A stretch of 24,998 nt of DNA from a bacterium (GTDB lineage Bacteria; CAIWAD01). The stretch covers positions 1-24,998 of the forward strand of contig JAUIFJ010000042.1 of assembly GCA_030429345.1 (NCBI GenBank). The letters are read 5' to 3'. Each line of letters opens with the position of its first letter. The first letter of the stretch is position 1. The position numbers and the translations under genes were made by a program. Positions 4,243 to 24,998 of this stretch are shown in pieces. The notes below the pieces were generated by a model. It was given only the letters and a program-made list of their open reading frames with translations. It was not told where the DNA came from and ran no database searches.

Positions 4243-7149
4243 ATGATTCCCGCAAGCCGGAAAGGCGCTCGCCTTTTTCTTAGATCCCTGTTCTCCCTGG
4301 CCCTGCTCGGCGGTCTGCTGACCGCCTGCAAGGCGCCCGGGGGAGCGATGCAGGACACCAGCCGTTTCGTCGTGCCTCCCCCCGTCGTGGATCTGGAGCA
4401 TCGTCCGGGCATTCACCAGGAACAGCGCAGCATCGTCCTGCCCAACCGCCTGGAAGTGCTGCTGGTCTCCGACGCCAACGCCAACAAGAGCTCGGCGGCC
4501 CTGGACGTGGCCGTCGGCAGCCTGGAAGATCCCAGGGACGCGCCCGGCCTGGCCCACTACCTGGAGCACATGCTCTTTCTGGGCACGGAAAAGTACCCGG
4601 ACGTGGAAGGCTACAAGGCCTACCTCAACGAGAACCAGGGCTATTCCAACGCCTATACGGCGGCCATGCGCACCAACTACCATTTCCAGGTCAACCCCGA
4701 CGCCTACGAGAACGCCCTGGACCGCTTTTCGCAGTTCTTCAAGGCCCCGCTCTTCGACGCGGACTTCATGGAGCGCGAAAAGAACGCCGTCCACAGCGAG
4801 CACAGCAAGAACCTGGACAGCGACTACTGGCGCCGCCGCATGGTCGAGCGCGCCACGCACCGCGCCGACCACCCGCGCTGCAGCTTCTCCACCGGCGATC
4901 TCGAGACCCTGAAGGGGGCGACCCGCGAGGCGGTCATCGAGTTCTACGAGAAATTCTATTCCGCCAACGTGATGCGTCTCTGCCTGCTCGGCCCCCACAG
5001 CCTGGACGAGCTGGAGGACATGGCCCGCACCTGGTTCAGCGACATACCGGACCATGATCGCGGCGATCTCGCCTATTCGGAGGATGTATACGACGAGCAG
5101 CTGCTGCCTGAGCTGATCCGCGTCAAGGCCGTGACACAGGAGCGCGAGCTGCAGCTGGTCTTCCCGCAGTCGCCGGACCCGGAACGCTGGCGCAGCAAGC
5201 CCTACCGGCTGATCGGCAGCCTGATCGGCCACGAGGGCGAGGGGTCGCTGCTCAGCGCCCTCAAGGAGGCCGGGCTGGCCACCGGCATCAGCCCCTGGAC
5301 CCAGGAAGAGCAGTGGGCCACCTATTTCCGCGTCATCGTCGATCTGACGGAAGAAGGCAGCCGCCGGCCGGAGGAAGTGGCCTCCATGTGCTTCGCCTAC
5401 CTGCGCATGCTCAAGGACGAAGGCATTCCCGACTGGTACTGGGCCGAGCAGAAGGCGAGCAGCGAGCTGGAGTTCGTCTACCGCGAGCACTGGGAAGGCG
5501 CCCAGCTCGCCAGCTGGTACGCGGGCGAGATGCAGGAGCATCCGGGCGAGGAGATCGAGTCGCGCGCCTTCCTGATCAGCGAGTACGACCCCGCGGGCAT
5601 CTCGCGCGCCCTGAACAGCCTGCAGCCGGAACGCTTCCGCGCGGTCCTGCTGTCGCCGGACCTGGAAGGGCTGGATCGGGTCGAACCGCACTACGGCACC
5701 GAGTACAGTCGTGAGACATTCAGCGCCGAGCAGCAGGCGCGCTTCCGCGAGGCCGCCTTTCCGGGCGCTTTCCGCCTGCCGCGGCAGAACCCCTACATGC
5801 CCGACCGCCTGGCCCTTCTGCAGGATCAGGACAGTCCTCGGCCCCTGCAGCTGCTGGACGAGGAGCAGGGGGAGTTCTGGTTCGAGTGCAACACGAGCTT
5901 CGGCGTGCCCCGCGGCCGCCTGAGCCTGCTCGTGTTGAGCGACAAGGCCAACGAGGATCCGCGCACCCGCCTGCTGCACAAGCTCTATGTGCGCTCCCTC
6001 AACGAAAGCCTCAACGAGTGGAGCTACCCGGCCCGCGAGGCCGGCCTGGACCTGGACCTGGCCGACGAGAGCCGCGGCCTGCGCATCGAGATCGAAGGAT
6101 TCAGCCAGCGTCTGCCGGAGCTGCTGCGCCAGCTGGGATCGCGCCTCAAGCGCCTGGAGATCGACGAGGAACGCTATCGGCAGATCCAGGAAAGCCTGAG
6201 CCGCGAGTTTGCCAACACGGATTTCGACCAGGCCTACCAGCACGGCTTCTACGAAGTGAACATCCTGCTCAACCCCGAAGCCCATCACCGGCGCGACTAC
6301 CGCGAGCTTGTATCACAAGTGTCGCTGGAGGAGGTGAAGGCCTACGCCGGGGACTTCTATGCGAGGACGGCCCTCGAGGGCTCGGCCAGCGGCAATCTTT
6401 CCCGCCAGGAAATGAAGGCCTCGCTGCTGGATTTCCAGGAAGCCATCGGCGGCAGCCGCCTGGCCATGGAAGAGCGTGAACCGGCGCCGATGGTCCTTCT
6501 GAACGAGGGAGAGCGCGACGGACGCCGTGTCAGCACCCTGGGCACCAACCACTGCTGGCTCGGCTACACGCAGCTGGGAGCGGACAGCCCCGCGCTGGAG
6601 GCCGTGCTGCGCGTCGGCAGCACCTGGCTCGAGGCCCCCTTCTACGGCGAGATGCGCACCCGGCAGCAGCTGGGCTACATTGTCTTCTCGGGACCGATGC
6701 TGAACCGGCCGGCGGTGGGCATGTATTACGCCATCCAGTCCGGGGAATACGCGGCCGACGAGCTGCGTCGCCGCGCCGTCACCTTCCTGGGCGGACAGCA
6801 GGCGGCCCTGCAGGAACTGGACGAGAGCACCTTCGACGCCATCAAGCAGGCCATTGCCGTCCAGCTGGCCCAGCCCGACAAGGACCTGGGCGATCGCATG
6901 AACACCCTGGAAACCCTGGGCCACGAGCGTCACGGCCGTTTCGGCTGGAAGCAGGAAGTGCTCGCCGCCCTGGACGAGCTGAACCTGGAGGATTTCCGCG
7001 CCGCCTTCCTGCCCGCCCTTAGCGCCGATAGCTGGGCGCATCTGGGCATCTACGTGGAAGCCAAGGACAGCGAACCGGCGGAGATCGCCGAAGAGCCCGT
7101 CAAGGACCTGGAGGACTGGCGGCAGAGCAAGGGAAGGATTACTTCGTGA
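4243..7149 (+). CDS. M16 family zinc metalloprotease (pitrilysin/insulinase type), predicted lipoprotein
   Basis: 968 residues, about the length of E. coli pitrilysin, so all four M16 domains fit in one chain. The inverted zinc motif HxxEH is at residues 105-109 (HYLEH). The third ligand, Glu186 in NAVHSEH, is 77 residues further on, the same spacing as in pitrilysin. The usual GYSNAYT and FxxPLF segments follow. The N-terminus has basic residues, a hydrophobic stretch and a lipobox LTAC with Cys29, so the protein should be a lipoprotein facing the periplasm. The inactive C-terminal half carries the conserved YGEMRTRQQLGYIVFS segment. The start ATG at 4243 follows AGAGAGGA at 4231-4238. The likely role is degradation of peptides or small misfolded proteins in the envelope. 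It stands alone between two opposing genes and ends at its own terminator. Confidence 0.93.
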   Translation: MIPASRKGARLFLRSLFSLALLGGLLTACKAPGGAMQDTSRFVVPPPVVDLEHRPGIHQEQRSIVLPNRLEVLLVSDANANKSSAALDVAVGSLEDPRDAPGLAHYLEHMLFLGTEKYPDVEGYKAYLNENQGYSNAYTAAMRTNYHFQVNPDAYENALDRFSQFFKAPLFDADFMEREKNAVHSEHSKNLDSDYWRRRMVERATHRADHPRCSFSTGDLETLKGATREAVIEFYEKFYSANVMRLCLLGPHSLDELEDMARTWFSDIPDHDRGDLAYSEDVYDEQLLPELIRVKAVTQERELQLVFPQSPDPERWRSKPYRLIGSLIGHEGEGSLLSALKEAGLATGISPWTQEEQWATYFRVIVDLTEEGSRRPEEVASMCFAYLRMLKDEGIPDWYWAEQKASSELEFVYREHWEGAQLASWYAGEMQEHPGEEIESRAFLISEYDPAGISRALNSLQPERFRAVLLSPDLEGLDRVEPHYGTEYSRETFSAEQQARFREAAFPGAFRLPRQNPYMPDRLALLQDQDSPRPLQLLDEEQGEFWFECNTSFGVPRGRLSLLVLSDKANEDPRTRLLHKLYVRSLNESLNEWSYPAREAGLDLDLADESRGLRIEIEGFSQRLPELLRQLGSRLKRLEIDEERYRQIQESLSREFANTDFDQAYQHGFYEVNILLNPEAHHRRDYRELVSQVSLEEVKAYAGDFYARTALEGSASGNLSRQEMKASLLDFQEAIGGSRLAMEEREPAPMVLLNEGERDGRRVSTLGTNHCWLGYTQLGADSPALEAVLRVGSTWLEAPFYGEMRTRQQLGYIVFSGPMLNRPAVGMYYAIQSGEYAADELRRRAVTFLGGQQAALQELDESTFDAIKQAIAVQLAQPDKDLGDRMNTLETLGHERHGRFGWKQEVLAALDELNLEDFRAAFLPALSADSWAHLGIYVEAKDSEPAEIAEEPVKDLEDWRQSKGRITS

Positions 7150-12121: not shown

Positions 12122-13156
12122 ATGACAGATCCTTTCTCCCCTGCCGAGGCCGCCTCGCCCGGTCGCGCCGACTGGGGTCCGGCAATCGAGTTCCTCAGCA
12201 GCGGCAGCAGTTTCGCGCTGACCACGCACATCAATTCCGACGGGGACGGCCTGGGCTGCCAGTCGGCCCTGGCCCGCGCCCTGCTGGCCATGGGAAAGAA
12301 GGTGCGGATCCTCAATCCGACCCGGATCGAGCACACCTACGCCTACCTGGTCGAGGGACTGGACCTGGCCATCGCCGCCGATCGCGCCGAGGCCGATTCC
12401 CTGCTGCCGGCGGACTGCGACCGCAGCGTGATCCTGGATGTCTCGACCCGGCGCCGCACGGGAGCCATGGACGAGCTCTTCCGCGCCCGCGATCTGCCCG
12501 AGCTGGTGATCGACCACCATGTCTCCAGCGAGTACGACGGCAGCCTGTGCTACATCTTTCCGGACAGCGGCAGCACCGGCGAAGTGCTCTACGAGCTCTT
12601 GTCCGCCATGGGGGCACCCATCGATTCCGCCATCGCGACGGCGCTGTATACGGCGATCTACACCGACACGGGAGGATTCGCCAACACGGCGACCTCGGCG
12701 CGCAACATGGAGATCGCGGCCAGCCTTGTGCGCCAGGGAGCGGACCCGGTCCGGATCTACGACCGCCTGCACCAGCAGCACCCGCTGGGCCGCTACCGCC
12801 TGATGGGCCGCATGATGGACGGCATCCGCAGCCTGGCCGGGGGCAGGATCAATGCCTTCACCATCAGCCGGGCCATGTTCCGTGAGACAGGCACGGGCCG
12901 CGAGCACACCGAAGGCTTCGTCAACCTGGGGCTCAACATCGCCGGCAGCGAAGTCGCCATCCTGATGACGGAGGTCGACGAGTTCTGCTGCAAGATCAGC
13001 TTCCGCAGCAAGGGACGCTACGATGTCAACGCCCTGGCCGGCCTCTTCGGCGGCGGCGGACACCACAACGCCGCCGGCGCCACCATCCAGGAGCCGCTGG
13101 CCGTGATCCAGCCCCGCATCCTGCAGGCCGCCGAGGCCATGGTGGCGGGTGAATAG
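12122..13156 (+). CDS. nrnA: DHH/DHHA1 phosphoesterase, NrnA-like oligoribonuclease/pAp phosphatase
   Basis: 344 residues from ATG at 12122. No clear ribosome site precedes it, and the frame is open far upstream inside the DUF2400 gene, so the start is chosen by homology (the DHH fold begins shortly after). Metal motifs are THINSDGDGLGCQ (Asp40, Asp42), ILDVSTRRRTG, VIDHHVSS (Asp131-His132-His133) and YTAIYTDTGGF. The DHHA1 substrate-binding end has GGGGHHNAAGA (His314-His315). NrnA proteins degrade 2-5 nt RNA fragments and hydrolyse 3'-phosphoadenosine 5'-phosphate, replacing Orn in many bacteria. The presence of rny in the same window fits an RNase Y/NrnA type of RNA decay. Confidence 0.92.
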   Translation: MTDPFSPAEAASPGRADWGPAIEFLSSGSSFALTTHINSDGDGLGCQSALARALLAMGKKVRILNPTRIEHTYAYLVEGLDLAIAADRAEADSLLPADCDRSVILDVSTRRRTGAMDELFRARDLPELVIDHHVSSEYDGSLCYIFPDSGSTGEVLYELLSAMGAPIDSAIATALYTAIYTDTGGFANTATSARNMEIAASLVRQGADPVRIYDRLHQQHPLGRYRLMGRMMDGIRSLAGGRINAFTISRAMFRETGTGREHTEGFVNLGLNIAGSEVAILMTEVDEFCCKISFRSKGRYDVNALAGLFGGGGHHNAAGATIQEPLAVIQPRILQAAEAMVAGE

Positions 13157-13158
13157 AG

Positions 13159-13280
13159 ACTCACGCAGAGACGCAGAGGCGCAGAGGCGCAGGAAAGAGG
13201 ATTTTCAGAGAGAATGGCTTCGCCCGCGGAGGCCGGCAGCGTAAACAAACCTCCTCCGTGTCTCCGCGTCTCTGCGCGAG
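13159..13280. repeat. 122-bp imperfect inverted repeat ('CGCAGAGACGCAGAG' type)
   Basis: The left arm (13159-13193, beginning ACTCACGCAGAGACGCAG) is about 80% complementary to the right arm (13249-13280, ending CGTCTCTGCGCGAG). They flank about 55 bp that include the phrase GCGGAGGCCGGCAG. Direct sub-repeats of GCAGAGGC occur in the left arm. Such purine-biased 'CGCAGAG' repeats are scattered through many environmental genomes and generate spurious ORFs. It sits between nrnA and the radical SAM gene. There is no transposase, so it is MITE-like at most. Confidence 0.75.
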
Positions 13281-13385
13281 AAAATGCGAGTACATCCCCC
13301 GGGACCCTGTCCCGTGTTCCGACAACCGGCGGTTCGATTCCGCCTCCCCGCCCGGCGGGGATCACGACCCAATTCGGAGAGCCCC

Positions 13386-16001
13386 ATGGAACCCACCCGG
13401 ACACGTCGGGAGCTGGACATCGACCAGGTCCTGGATCACATTCTGCCTTCCGTGAACAAGCCCGGCCGCTACATCGGCGGCGAGCTGAACACCATCCGCA
13501 AGGATTTCGAGAACACCGAGGTGCGCCTGGCGCTCTGCTTTCCGGATGTCTACGAGATCGGCATGAGCTACACGGTCGGTTTCGGCATCCTCTACAAGCT
13601 GGTCAACGGCATGAACTTCGCCCTGGCCGAGCGCGTCTACGCTCCCTGGCCGGACATGGAAGCCGCCCTGCGCGAGCGCGATCAGCCGGTCTTCTCCCTG
13701 GAGAGCCGCCAGCCCCTCCACCGCTTCGAGGTCGTCGGCTTCACCCTGCAGTACGAACTGCACTACACCAACATCCTGACCATGCTCGACCTGGGCGGCG
13801 TGCCCCTGCGCGCGGAAGAGCGCGGCGAGGACGACCCCTTCGTGATCGCCGGAGGCCCCTGCGCCTACAACTGCGAGGCGGCGGCCGACTTCTTCGACTG
13901 CGTGCTTGCCGGCGACGGGGAAGAGGCCCTGCCGCGTTTCCTGCAGCTGGTGCGTGAGACAAAGGGCCTTCCCCGCATCGAGCGCCTGCGCCGTTTCGCC
14001 CAGGAGGAGAACATCTACGTGCCGCGCTTCTACCGGCCCGTATTCGGAGCCTTCGATCCCGAAAAGAGCTGTTCGCCCTTCCTGGAGATGGAGCGTCTCG
14101 ACGATGCGGCGCGTCCCCTGATCCGCCCGGCGATCATCGAGGAGCTGAGCGCGGACAACTATCCCGACAAGCCCCTGGTGCCGATCATCGAGGCCACCTT
14201 CACCCGGCTTTCGCTCGAGGTGATGCGCGGCTGCAGCCGCGGCTGCCGCTTCTGCCACGCGGGCATGGTCTACCGTCCCGTGAGACAGCGCAAGCCCGGC
14301 GAGATCCTCGAGCAGGCCCGCGAGAGCCTGAAGAACACGGGCTTCAAGGAGGTCTCGCTGCTCTCGCTGAGCACGGGGGACTACGAGCCGCTGCACGAGT
14401 TCCTCGACGAGGCCCTTGACGAGTTCAGCGCCAGTGACACATCGATCAGCTTTCCCAGCCTGCGCACGGAGATGTTCACCCCGCGCATGGCCCAGGCGGC
14501 GAGCACGATGAAGACCTCCGGCATGACCTTCGCCCCGGAGGCGGGCACCGAGCGCCTGCGCCGCATCATCAACAAGGGCAACTCGGACAAGGACCTCTAC
14601 GCCGCGGTGAAGACGGCCTTCGAGTACGGCTGGCGACACATCAAGCTCTATTTCATGATCGGCCTGCCCTTCGAGGAGGACAGCGACGTGGAAGGCATCG
14701 TCCACACGGCCAACGAGGTGGCTCGCATCGGCCGCGAATACGGACGTGTCACGGTCCGCGCCGCGGTCAGTCCCCACAGCCCCAAGCCCAACACGCCCTT
14801 CCAGTGGTTCGGCCAGCCGACCACGGAGCAGTTCCTGCACAAGGTCCACGTGCTGAAGAGCGTGCCGCGTGAAAAGGGGGTCAAGCTCGACTACCGCGAT
14901 CCGGAAGTGAGCTATGTGGAGGACGCCCTGGCCCGCGGCGATCGCAGGCTGTCACACGTGATCGAGGAGGCCTGGAGGCGCGGCGCGCGTTTCGACGCCT
15001 GGTCCAGCGAGTTCCGCATCGAGCTCTGGGAACAGGCCTTCGAGAAATGCGGTCTCGACATGGAGGAGTTCACCCGCCCGCGGGGCGAGGAGGAGCCCCT
15101 GCCCTGGGAGCACACCAGCGGACACATCAAGAAGCGCTTCCTGCTCAAGAGCTGGCACAACGCCCAGCAGGAAGTCTGGAAGCCGGACTGCCGCGAGAGC
15201 ACCTGCGACGCCTGCGGAGCCTGCACGCCGGAAATGGTCAAGAAGGTGGTCGGCAGCCTGACCCCGGTGGCCGATCGCGACGATTCCAGGCTGAAGGCCC
15301 GCGAGAGCGTGGCCAGCCGTCCGGAGCGCGGCGACCTGCCGCGTCACACGCTGCGGATTCTCTACGCCAAGCGCGGGGTCGGCCGCTATGTGGGACACCT
15401 GGACATGCAGGGGCACGTGGGCCGCGCCCTGGGCATGCTGGGCGCGCCGGTGGCCTGGACCCAGGGCTTCAATCCACGGATGAGGCTCAATTTCGGTCCG
15501 CCTCTTCCCCTGGGCTGGGCCGGAGAGCGGGAGATGCTGGACATCGAGCTGAACGGCGAATGGAACGAGGCCGAGACGCTCTTCGCCCTGCTGCCCGAAG
15601 GCATCGACTACGTGGATTCCCTTTTCAGCGCGCAGAAGCTGGCCTCGCCGGCGGGCCGCATCCACAGCCAGCGCCTGGGAATCCGCAGCAGCCGCGGCCC
15701 CGAACTGCTGGAAGAAATGGCAAAAGTGGCAGCGCAATCTTCCTATATTGTAGAACGCGAACGCAAGGGCCGCCGGCGCACCATCGACCTGCGGCCTTTT
15801 CTTCTCGACTATTGCGCCCTGGATCCGGCCGATCCGTCCAGCGCGGGCGCCTGCCTGCAGCTGACGCTGCTGGTTCGCGAAGGCCAGAGCGCGCGTCCCG
15901 AGGAACTGCTTCCGGCCGAATGGATCGACCGGGTAGTGCGCCTCGAACAATGCCTGAGCACGAAGGCGGGAATCGTTCCGCCCCTGATGGAGACCCCATG
16001 A
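13386..16001 (+). CDS. B12-binding-type radical SAM protein fused to DUF2344 domain (TIGR03960/TIGR03936-like)
   Basis: 871 residues from ATG at 13386, with CGGAGA upstream. The N-terminal third (ALCFPDVYEIGMSYTVG ... GGPCAYNCEAAADFFD) is the cobalamin-binding-like domain. The radical SAM cluster motif is Cys283-x3-Cys287-x2-Cys290 (GCSRGCRFCHAG). A second cysteine set, Cys602-x4-Cys607-x2-Cys610-x2-Cys613, sits in the linker and may bind another metal centre. From about residue 655 (LRILYAKRGVGRYVGHLDMQ) the DUF2344 radical-SAM-associated domain follows. In many bacteria this is a separate protein next to the radical SAM gene; here both form one chain. The reaction is not established; an RNA- or ribosome-related modification has been suggested from gene neighbourhoods. 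The stop overlaps the dxs start as ATGA, so the two genes are coupled. Confidence 0.9.
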   Translation: MEPTRTRRELDIDQVLDHILPSVNKPGRYIGGELNTIRKDFENTEVRLALCFPDVYEIGMSYTVGFGILYKLVNGMNFALAERVYAPWPDMEAALRERDQPVFSLESRQPLHRFEVVGFTLQYELHYTNILTMLDLGGVPLRAEERGEDDPFVIAGGPCAYNCEAAADFFDCVLAGDGEEALPRFLQLVRETKGLPRIERLRRFAQEENIYVPRFYRPVFGAFDPEKSCSPFLEMERLDDAARPLIRPAIIEELSADNYPDKPLVPIIEATFTRLSLEVMRGCSRGCRFCHAGMVYRPVRQRKPGEILEQARESLKNTGFKEVSLLSLSTGDYEPLHEFLDEALDEFSASDTSISFPSLRTEMFTPRMAQAASTMKTSGMTFAPEAGTERLRRIINKGNSDKDLYAAVKTAFEYGWRHIKLYFMIGLPFEEDSDVEGIVHTANEVARIGREYGRVTVRAAVSPHSPKPNTPFQWFGQPTTEQFLHKVHVLKSVPREKGVKLDYRDPEVSYVEDALARGDRRLSHVIEEAWRRGARFDAWSSEFRIELWEQAFEKCGLDMEEFTRPRGEEEPLPWEHTSGHIKKRFLLKSWHNAQQEVWKPDCRESTCDACGACTPEMVKKVVGSLTPVADRDDSRLKARESVASRPERGDLPRHTLRILYAKRGVGRYVGHLDMQGHVGRALGMLGAPVAWTQGFNPRMRLNFGPPLPLGWAGEREMLDIELNGEWNEAETLFALLPEGIDYVDSLFSAQKLASPAGRIHSQRLGIRSSRGPELLEEMAKVAAQSSYIVERERKGRRRTIDLRPFLLDYCALDPADPSSAGACLQLTLLVREGQSARPEELLPAEWIDRVVRLEQCLSTKAGIVPPLMETP

Positions 16002-22204: not shown

Positions 22205-23146
22205 ATGAGCAAGATCACCGTCATCGGCGCCGGCAACGTGGGCGCCACAGCGGCCCAGCGCGCCGCGGAGAAGGAACTGGCCGAGCAGGTCGTCCTGGTC
22301 GACATTCTCGAAGGCATTCCCCAGGGCAAGGCCCTCGACATGTGGGAAACCGCTCCCATCGAGCTCTACGACAGCCGCGTCATCGGCGCCAACAGCTACG
22401 AAGAGACCGCGGGCAGCGATGTGATCATCATGACCGCCGGCCTTGCGCGCAAGCCGGGCATGAGCCGCGATGACCTGCTGAAGAAGAACACGGAAATCGT
22501 CCACAACTGCATCAGCGCCGCGGCGAAGCAGAGCCCGAACGCGGTGATCATCGTCGTCAGCAATCCGCTGGACGCCATGACCTACGTGGCGCTGAAGGCC
22601 AGCGGCTTCCCCACCGAGCGCGTCTTCGGCATGGCAGGCGTGCTCGACACGGCGCGCTATCGCAGCTTCATTGCCGAAGCGCTGAATGTCAGTGTGCGCG
22701 ATGTGGCCGCCCTGGTGCTCGGCGGACACGGCGACACCATGGTCCCGCTGCCGCGTTACACGATGGTCGGCGGCATCCCCCTGCCGCAGCTGATGCCCGC
22801 CGAGCAGATCGAGGCCATCGTCGACCGCACCCGCAAGGGCGGAGCGGAGATCGTCGGCCTGCTGAAGACCGGCAGCGCCTACTACGCCCCCAGCGCCGCC
22901 GCCGTCGAGATGGCCGCCAGCGTGATGCGCAACCAGAAGCGCGTCCTCCCCTGCGCCGCATGGCTGACGGGCGAGTACGGCCTGAAGGACCTCTACATGG
23001 GCGTCCCGCTGAAGATCGGCAAGGGCGGAGCCGAGCAGGTGCTCGAGCTGGAGCTGAACGCGGAAGAGCAGAAGCTTTTCGACGGCAGCGTCGCGGCGGT
23101 GCGGAAGAACATCGGCGAGGTCGAGGCGATTTTGAACGCGATGTAA
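22205..23146 (+). CDS. mdh: Malate dehydrogenase, lactate-dehydrogenase-like type
   Basis: 313 residues. It interconverts malate and oxaloacetate in the TCA cycle. The Rossmann motif is GAGNVGAT (Gly8, Gly10, Gly13). Asp33 at the end of the second strand indicates NAD rather than NADP. Substrate residues are Arg82 and Arg88 in LARKPGMSR; the Arg82 position marks malate over lactate specificity. Also present are Asn120 (VSNPLD), Arg151, and the catalytic Asp148-His175 pair (GVLDTARYR and [10 protein letters not shown]). Length and pattern match the tetrameric MDH group common in the FCB and Chloroflexi lineages. It stands alone with its own terminator. Its last 23 codons and terminator are duplicated downstream at 23349-23478. 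Confidence 0.97.
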
Positions 23147-23172
23147 ACTTCCGCCAGATTGTAGACTTTTGG

Positions 23173-23200
23173 AAGGGCCGTCCGTTGGGACGGCCCTTTT
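23173..23200 (+). terminator. Rho-independent terminator of mdh
   Basis: Perfect 11-bp stem AAGGGCCGTCC / GGACGGCCCTT with a GTTG loop, ending in TTTT. A related hairpin follows the duplicated mdh tail at 23449-23477. Confidence 0.92.
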
Positions 23201-23269
23201 GCATTGATGGAAGGTGTCCTATTGGCGAGGATGTCTTCGCAAGTCACTGTCACTGCAGGATTACCACCC

Positions 23270-23291
23270 TTTACTCAATGCATTGAGTAAA
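23270..23291. repeat. 22-bp perfect palindrome
   Basis: TTTACTCAATG at 23270-23280 is followed without spacer by its exact reverse complement CATTGAGTAAA. It is A+T-rich and lies in the stretch between the two copies of the mdh 3' end. It could be a dimeric-protein operator or a recombination site; nothing decides this. Confidence 0.75.
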
Positions 23292-23348
23292 ACTACTCAC
23301 GATAAAGGCTGCGCCTACCCCAGTTCTGGCGAAACGTGGAGAAGCCCT

Positions 23349-23422
23349 AGCTCTTCGACGGCAGCGTGGCCGCGGTGCGCAAGAACATCGGCGAGGTCGA
23401 GGCGATTTTGAACGCGATGTAG
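23349..23422 (+). pseudogene. Relic of a second mdh: duplicated 3' end only
   Basis: Codons 23351-23422 encode the identical 23 C-terminal residues of mdh ([12 protein letters not shown] ... ILNAM) followed by TAG instead of TAA. Four codons differ from mdh and all four changes are synonymous. A 41-bp core (23381-23421) is identical to 23105-23145. Similarity continues through the untranslated region and terminator to about 23478, giving about 130 bp in all. The upstream coding part is absent: before 23349 the sequence is unrelated. It is the tail of a lost paralogue, or the far junction of an element inserted in the mdh 3' end. Confidence 0.85.
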
Positions 23423-23448
23423 ACATCCGCCAGACTGTAGACAATGGG

Positions 23449-23477
23449 AGGGCCGCCCTGGTTGGTGCGGCCCTTTT
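23449..23477 (+). terminator. Terminator hairpin after the mdh relic
   Basis: AGGGCCGC at 23449-23456 pairs with GCGGCCCT at 23467-23474. The loop holds a further CC/GG pair, and TTTT ends at 23477. It is homologous in position and sequence to the mdh terminator. Confidence 0.85.
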
Positions 23478-23756
23478 GTACTCCCACATTTGAACGGATA
23501 ATGGAATCTTCTGAACCTGGTGCGCGAACCAGCTGTGTAGCCACCGTCAGGGTGAGTGGCTTGTTGTGTCGGGATCTGCGGATTTTCCTGGTCCACAGTG
23601 CCGGGACTTCTGGTGATACATTCGCGGCAGGATCAACTGGACGTGCAGTGGGGCGAAGGGCAGATCTCCTGGATCAGAATTCGAGGAAGACTGGGCTGGA
23701 TCGCTCCACCGGCGTGTTCGAAGGCGACTGTTGCACCGACAAGAGGCAGGAGAGTC

Positions 23757-24440
23757 ATGACATCTTTGTTATTCGCCATTCTGGTTGTGTTCCTCTTTGC
23801 AGCATTCGGCGCTCTGCTTGTCAGACATTCTGATGGTTCTGCATCGAAGGCAAGGGTCGGAGGCAGTGCGACGCTGGTCTATCTCATTCTTCCAGCCGTG
23901 CTGGCCCTTGGCGGTCTGTTGGACAGCTACGATCCAGTTCCTCGTCCGATGGTTGTCGTCGTACTCGTGACAGGTATTACAGTATGGATTGCTCGATCCC
24001 CTCTCGGTGCCAGGTTGGCCAGAACGACGCCTTTGGCCTTGCTGGTCGGTTTTCAAGCATTCCGGATCCCCGTAGAGCTCTTGCTGCACCAGTTGTGGAA
24101 AGAGGGGCAGATTCCCCAGGCAATGACCTTCACCGGATGGAACTTCGACATAGCGAGTGGTATCACGGCGGGAATTCTGGGGGTGCTGCTTGCGGTTGGC
24201 CGAGTCGACAAGCGTGTCCTGATGGCATGGAATGTTGCCGGGTTGCTTCTCCTGATCACGATCATCATCATCGCGGTCCTGGCAACCCCCGTCTTTGATC
24301 CGGCCCTCTTCGATGGTCCTCTCAATACTTTGCCCGGCACGTTCCCTTACATCTGGCTCCCCACGGTGTTGGTTCAGCTCGCGCTGCTTGGACACTTGCT
24401 GCTGTTTCGTCGACTCGGCATGAAGGATGCCGCTGTATGA
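23757..24440 (+). CDS. Integral membrane protein, uncharacterised, on lower-G+C segment
   Basis: 227 residues from ATG at 23757, chosen because CAGGAGAG lies directly upstream and the first residues (MTSLLFAILVVFLFAAFGALL) form a membrane helix. The frame is open to a GTG at 23556. About six to seven hydrophobic segments alternate with short polar loops. The most distinctive part is FRIPVELLLHQLWKEGQIP followed by MTFTGWNFDIASGITAGILG, and a late WLPTVLVQLALLGHLLLF. I recall similar 'RIPVE...MTFEGRNFDI..G' proteins annotated only as hypothetical in other bacteria, and I know of no function. Codon use is less G+C-biased than in the genes before 23.2 kb, so recent acquisition is likely. Confidence 0.7.
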   Translation: MTSLLFAILVVFLFAAFGALLVRHSDGSASKARVGGSATLVYLILPAVLALGGLLDSYDPVPRPMVVVVLVTGITVWIARSPLGARLARTTPLALLVGFQAFRIPVELLLHQLWKEGQIPQAMTFTGWNFDIASGITAGILGVLLAVGRVDKRVLMAWNVAGLLLLITIIIIAVLATPVFDPALFDGPLNTLPGTFPYIWLPTVLVQLALLGHLLLFRRLGMKDAAV

Positions 24441-24543
24441 CAAGCCAATTCACCGGTCTGATTGAGTTTCCAGCGGATAGCCCACTTGTTGATACTGCAG
24501 AATGATCCTCCAGATCACTGCTGTCCCACAGTTTGAGACGAAA

Positions 24544-24617
24544 ATGCCCGAATCTCTGGCTTTTGTAGTACATTGCAAGTGCTAACAAAACAAGTACAGC
24601 AAAGGAGATCCGGGCAT
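24544..24617 (+). promoter_or_regulatory. Leader hairpin enclosing the transposase ribosome site and start
   Basis: ATGCCCGAATCTC at 24544-24556 can pair with GAGATCCGGGCAT at 24605-24617 (12 of 13 positions), extended by CTTT/AAAG after a TGG bulge. The right arm holds part of the AGGAG site and reaches the TTG start codon. Confidence 0.65.
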
Positions 24618-24998
24618 TGGCTTACCAACATACAGTACTCTCTCAAGTCCTCAAAATGATCCCCCGACATGAAGTGGAAGCGATCGGGCTGAAGCATCAT
24701 GTAGGTCAGAAGTTCAGGAAAATCAATCACTGGTCTCATTTCCTGGTGATGCTGGTAGCCCAGATTTCAGGCGCAGGCAGCCTTCGAGAAGCCGTTTCCG
24801 GATTCTTGTCGAATTCCCAGTATTACTATCACCTGGGCTGCAAGGGCATTTCACGATCGACGCTTTCTCGAGCGAACAGTCAGCAGCCTTGGGAGATCTT
24901 TCGAGAGCTTTACTTCTTGCTGGCAAAGCGCGCCCCGCTTCGAGGAAAGCACAAATTTGATTTCCCAAACAAGCTGATCTCGATGGATGCGACGACGA
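24617..24998 (+). mobile_element. IS4-type transposase with DUF4372 N-terminus (3' partial, runs off window)
   Basis: 127 codons are visible from a TTG at 24617, preceded by AGGAG at 24603-24607. A later ATG at codon 14 is possible but would cut the conserved start. The protein opens YQHTVLSQVLKMIPRHEVE, then KFRKINHWSHFLVMLVAQISGAGSLREAV and YYHLGCKGISRSTLSRANSQ. This is the DUF4372 pattern that precedes the DDE domain in one IS4-related group. The first catalytic aspartate is probably Asp124 in ISMDATT at the window end. The left end of the element should lie between 24441 and 24544, perhaps near the GTCCCACAGTTTGAGACG phrase at 24522-24540. No inverted repeat can be tested because the right end is outside the window. 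Confidence 0.85.

Follow-up and report, generated by a model that had tools for sequence, protein, structure and literature searches.

A second, silently diverged copy of the mdh 3' end as a probable scar of tail-replacing integration

Why should an intact malate dehydrogenase gene be followed, 276 bp downstream, by a second copy of its own last codons and its own terminator? The question arises in a window of 24,998 nucleotides, which is the entire contig C29 of a draft assembly; the view ends, of course, where the contig does, at 24998. The features that raise it are these.

22205..23146, plus strand: mdh, NAD-dependent malate dehydrogenase, 313 aa, intact (TIGR01763 E=4e-141; Pfam Ldh_1_N/Ldh_1_C)
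23075..23146, plus strand: gene-proximal mdh tail, 23 codons and TAA (alignment, codon comparison); supplied by an element in the model favoured below
23105..23145, plus strand: 41-bp core, identical to 23381-23421 (alignment)
23173..23201, plus strand: intrinsic terminator of mdh, 11-bp stem (fold -27 kcal/mol, z -4.2)
23333..23350, plus strand: decayed stretch resembling mdh (N V E K P stop), just 5' of the displaced tail, 12/18 identical; candidate element arm beside the crossover
23351..23422, plus strand: displaced tail, 23 codons and TAG, four silent differences (alignment, codon comparison); the host's original mdh tail in the model
23449..23478, plus strand: diverged homologous terminator of the displaced tail (alignment, fold -24 kcal/mol)

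Local gapped alignment pairs 23057-23201 with 23333-23478 over 147 bp at 85% identity, and its score of 181 compares with a maximum of 27 in 200 shuffles. On the 3' side, the homology ends at the T-run of the terminator. Over the 23 codons the tails differ at four nucleotides, every one of them (4/4) a silent third position; the pairs, mdh copy first, are CTT/CTC, GTC/GTG, GCG/GCC and CGG/CGC. Taken alone, these four differences are weak evidence (P about 0.003). Between the two terminators, one stem pair has been altered on both sides, T-A to C-G. Together, the silent changes in the tails and the two-sided change in the stem imply that both tails were functional while they diverged.

The original prediction had described the copy as encoding the last 23 residues of mdh, with four silent differences, another stop codon and a diverged but homologous terminator, and as sharing an identical 41-bp core with the gene; alignment, codon comparison and folds agree with this. 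Its placing of the copy at 23349-23478 is right at the 3' end but not at the 5' start, as homology begins 18 bp further 5', at 23333-23350. Among random 18-mers of the window, a match to mdh this good has a probability of about 0.001. Divergence that is silent only, also claimed, holds over the 23 codons but not in these 18 bp, which carry non-silent changes and a TAG stop. Further upstream, there is perhaps weak gapped similarity, but nothing else that is mdh-like.

The silent-only coding homology stops at 23351, and the decayed homology goes on to 23333. At 23350/23351, the alignment steps from no non-silent codon among 23 to several. The step resembles the junction that recombination would leave where a non-coding arm meets a coding tail. 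The crossover would then sit close to the 5' border of the displaced tail, and it need not have fallen within the 41-bp core. At that border, TTCGACGGCAGCGT is identical in both copies. The core had been proposed as the duplicated attachment site. A duplication it is, but the duplicated unit is the 147 bp of tail and terminator, with the crossover perhaps at the 5' edge of that unit.

One history that might leave two tails is the loss of most of a second mdh, duplicated in tandem or acquired, with only its 3' end and terminator surviving. This would give an identical two-tail layout, and the decayed 18 bp would be what remains of mdh-derived sequence at the edge of the deletion. A dead tail, however, should gain non-silent changes. 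Here all four changes in the tail are silent, while the six codons next to it are mostly changed non-silently. Nor does the 92-contig assembly hold a second mdh or a further mdh fragment; the tail occurs in it twice, both times at the mdh locus.

The original prediction had looked to the mdh downstream regions of other genomes to choose between deletion and integration. Comparison gave neither of the expected signs. Among 77 other loci with downstream sequence there was no tandem mdh and no convincing copy of the gene's own tail, and no island or integrase lay beside mdh at 80 other loci of the genome collection. The three nearest genomes belong to the same family but to another genus; their mdh is 78% identical and their tails are single. 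In two of the three, mdh is followed by genes that we take, from their translations, to be elbB and then glgC. In the present genome, elbB was not found in the assembly and glgC lies on another contig. What follows the displaced tail is instead the following.

23479..24998, no strand: lower-GC DNA (54%) where relatives have elbB-glgC (composition, relatives' loci)
23757..24440, plus strand: orphan hydrophobic ORF, 227 aa, no Pfam/PHROGs family (ORF, profile search)
24617..24998, plus strand: IS4-type transposase (DUF4372), 5' part, cut by the contig end (profile search)

The 227-aa ORF has no relatives in the related genomes. Between the displaced tail and the contig end there is no third mdh tail. 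That the DNA beyond the displaced copy looks foreign, and is not elbB-glgC, argues further against a deleted second mdh. The predicted change in base composition is real, with GC falling from about 65% to 54% past the displaced tail. As for the insertion hotspot that it was said to fit, none of the other mdh loci examined has islands at this site, so that mdh is not a general hotspot.

A different model comes from elements that insert into the 3' end of a gene and bring a replacement tail with them, as e14 is known to do in icd of E. coli (PMC6379469). In MG1655, a tail of 165 bp is common to the icd gene completed by e14 and to the displaced icdC; the two versions differ at 11 codons, nine of them silently. 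A diverged spacer follows, then a homologous terminator, and homology ends at the T-run. The mdh locus shares this anatomy: the 3' end of a TCA-cycle dehydrogenase gene as target (phage 21 also uses icd), a duplicated tail whose differences are silent or almost only silent, a diverged spacer, a homologous terminator and the same T-run limit. There are, of course, differences. The e14 element is 15.2 kb long and carries intE/xisE, whereas the mdh insert has 276 bp and no genes; the duplicated tail is 165 bp in icd and 72 bp in mdh. In icd/icdC, homology drops abruptly to chance level 5' of the crossover, and two further cases described below (on contigs C60 and C63) end as sharply; the mdh pair, by contrast, keeps a short stretch of decayed homology beyond the 5' end of the tail.

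By this model, an element targeting the mdh 3' end would have integrated by site-specific recombination. With its attachment site would have come a replacement for the tail and terminator, and in this replacement mdh would now end (23075-23201). The host's own tail and terminator would have been shifted beyond the insert (23351-23478), where they persist as a displaced piece. The element's body would then have been lost, to leave a scar of 276 bp. The integrase step at mdh, the identity of the foreign tail and the deletion of the element body are the parts that we infer.

Which tail is the foreign one? Two of the silent sites (an L and an R codon) can be compared with the relatives, which have CTC or CTG at the first and CGC at the second. 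The displaced tail has the relatives' codons (CTC in 2/3, CGC in 3/3); the mdh copy has none of them. This would make the displaced copy the original and the gene-proximal copy the one brought in. The genome also prefers CTC, GCC and CGC over the mdh copy's CTT, GCG and CGG, so that the displaced tail has more of the host-preferred codons, which points the same way. With few sites, confounded by codon preference, the assignment is suggestive only.

The interior of the insert holds two features.

23205..23332, no strand: non-homologous interior, 128 bp, 49% GC, no ORF (alignment); remnant of inserted DNA in the model
23270..23291, no strand: perfect 22-bp palindrome TTTACTCAATGCATTGAGTAAA (sequence)

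No integrase gene, ORF or recognised arm site was found in the 276 bp, and the integrases of this genome sit on contigs other than C29. The interior has no match in phages or plasmids (blastn) or in relatives, and none with the ends of the C60 and C63 inserts. Scans of viral contigs with a degenerate core pattern, the exact core pattern and the palindrome gave no matches. A likeness between the mdh core and the C60 core (GCGGAAGA) was considered and rejected as not significant (P 0.12). All three TACTCA hexamers of the window fall within 23272-23299, the third beside the palindrome; the region 23270-23299 could hold operator or recombinase arm sites.

At so small a size and with no integrase, the insert is at best a decayed remnant or a non-autonomous element. 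CIMEs, which are generally much larger, offer the nearest description. Like the mdh insert, they are non-coding remnants that have a copy of a gene 3' end on either side, lack an integrase and adjoin foreign-looking DNA. CIMEs are what is left when integrated elements decay but retain attL and attR, and they frequently form tandem accretions (PMC5704250); at mdh, by contrast, the att sites are only putative, and no related intact element or excision is known. Elements of the SGI1 type, and others, insert in the 3' end of a protein gene (thdF/trmE), keep the gene functional and form known tandem arrays (PMC5704250, PMC2297512). They, too, use the end of a conserved protein gene that stays functional, but they are complete, mobilizable and equipped with an integrase, and their target is thdF/trmE rather than mdh.

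The same design recurs elsewhere in this genome. A survey of 3,745 ORF tails, searched for same-strand copies downstream, covered 1.96 Mb (46%) of the assembly, in contigs picked partly for integrases. One case is on C60, where the tail and terminator of a 1433-aa FlgD-tailed ORF (ending ...DARKMILLK) lie at 4663-4754 and again at 51992-52083, a spacing of 47,329 bp. The 47-kb island between them has about 47% GC, against 62-64% outside, and a 376-aa tyrosine integrase ORF starts at 4879, 125 bp past the first tail copy.

Three further cases lack an integrase. On C63 (24148-25713), the last 46 codons of a gene for an FAD-dependent oxidoreductase are repeated 1,391 bp downstream, with five of six codon differences silent. 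Its insert (1.25 kb, 49% GC) contains one orphan 350-aa gene for a lipoprotein-like PQQ-repeat protein. On C9 (1-5991, minus strand), a gene whose sequence we read as lpd (dihydrolipoyl dehydrogenase) is followed by displaced tails at distances of 2,344 and 4,422 bp; with its own, three tails are stacked in an array that extends to the contig end. Every pairwise difference among them is silent (9/9, 7/7, 4/4), and between the tails lie two related orphan genes for surface-protein-like products of 507 and 559 aa. On C13 (117202-125800), an EnvC/M23-like gene has a decaying displaced tail with its own terminator 7,209 bp downstream; here all three changes are non-silent.

An integrase beside the C63 duplication had at first been assigned to it, and was rejected because an adjoining tRNA-Gln 3' fragment marks a tRNA island. 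Such fragments occur at C63:24023 and C82:4838, beside related integrases of 384-390 aa, and the intact tRNA lies on C25 near 668, which suggests that two islands use this tRNA-Gln gene. Other survey matches were also set aside: tandem paralogous secreted genes on C8, a match on C71 that is not a gene tail, and repeats or wrong-frame ORFs on C28, C61, C11 and at C9:50799. The C71 match (12792-14026) is a HigBA-like toxin-antitoxin pair between 116-bp direct repeats (95%). Separately, C42, C43 and C62 carry a repeated module (86-92% identity) that combines a XerC-like tyrosine recombinase with a small ORF and a HigBA-like toxin-antitoxin pair; C77 has only its recombinase part. In a control survey of 1.15 Mb drawn from 80 genomes, none of 1,187 ORF tails was a clean case of this kind, although a sample of this size cannot establish enrichment.

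Pooled over mdh, lpd and the FAD-dependent oxidoreductase, 18 of 19 codon differences are silent, which under neutral change has a probability of about 5e-9. This means that the displaced tails mostly diverged as working gene ends, as serial tail replacement predicts and simple duplication followed by decay does not. The repeated pattern also weighs against the deleted second mdh. Recurrence at unrelated genes would require many independent duplicate-and-delete events, which that history leaves unexplained, just as it needs a dead tail with silent changes only beside a stretch that has decayed. We regard it as unlikely.

Recurrence on four other contigs bears, in turn, on the assembly. A misassembly or a strain chimera might have joined two mdh variants; the genome is a draft (4.24 Mb, 92 contigs, 98% complete), and C29 ends about 1.5 kb beyond the displaced tail, in the transposase. 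However, the displaced copy is joined on its 5' side to unrelated sequence, where a graph misjoin would have no k-mer in common to act on, an ordinary read is longer than the 41-bp core, and contamination is 0.58%. An artefact is very improbable.

The small inserts invite another explanation, in which no integrase took part. A circle carrying the mdh tail of a related strain might have recombined homologously within the mdh tail, by a Campbell-type insertion. At small inserts, this would leave the same picture as integration. The inserts at mdh, the oxidoreductase gene and lpd have no integrase, and the lengths and borders of the tails vary among loci and among the lpd copies, as expected if any homologous stretch can serve. 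Yet the origin of such circles has no explanation here, the C60 island has its integrase directly behind the tail, and loss of the integrase is the route commonly described for remnants of this kind (PMC5704250). We hold this history, too, to be improbable.

Site-specific integration with tail replacement, followed by loss of the element body, is probably what happened at the 3' end of mdh. It is favoured by the e14 anatomy, the integrase island on C60, the stacked silent-only tails of lpd and the foreign-looking region downstream. Against it stand an insert with no integrase or ORF, no match to a mobile element, no islands at 80 other mdh loci, and the tail on C13 with non-silent changes only. 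Of the two histories first proposed, integration like that of e14 in icd is thus preferred over a deleted second mdh, but what it left is only a remnant with no integrase, or a non-autonomous element.

It is also possible, if rather doubtful, that mdh, the oxidoreductase gene and lpd record something more general. This lineage may carry a class of small cassettes with no integrase, each a housekeeping-gene tail with at most one orphan gene. They would enter genes at the 3' end and accumulate there, as in the three tails of lpd, mobilised in trans or through homologous recombination between conserved gene tails. Each newcomer would replace the working tail and leave its predecessor as a fossil.

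Elements that enter the 3' end of a gene and supply it with a new tail are known (e14, SGI1 and many islands), as are decayed tandem remnants with no integrase, the CIMEs (PMC6379469, PMC5704250). The use of mdh as a target looks new; a literature search for mdh as an attachment site found nothing relevant. It would make mdh the second TCA-cycle dehydrogenase gene among the insertion sites where an element rebuilds the gene's own 3' end, and this in a barely studied lineage. Even a tiny scar would stay recognisable after its element has gone. The stacked, silent-only tails of lpd suggest, further, that a history of repeated insertion can be read from displaced tails as from fossils, a signature that can be searched for in one genome after another.
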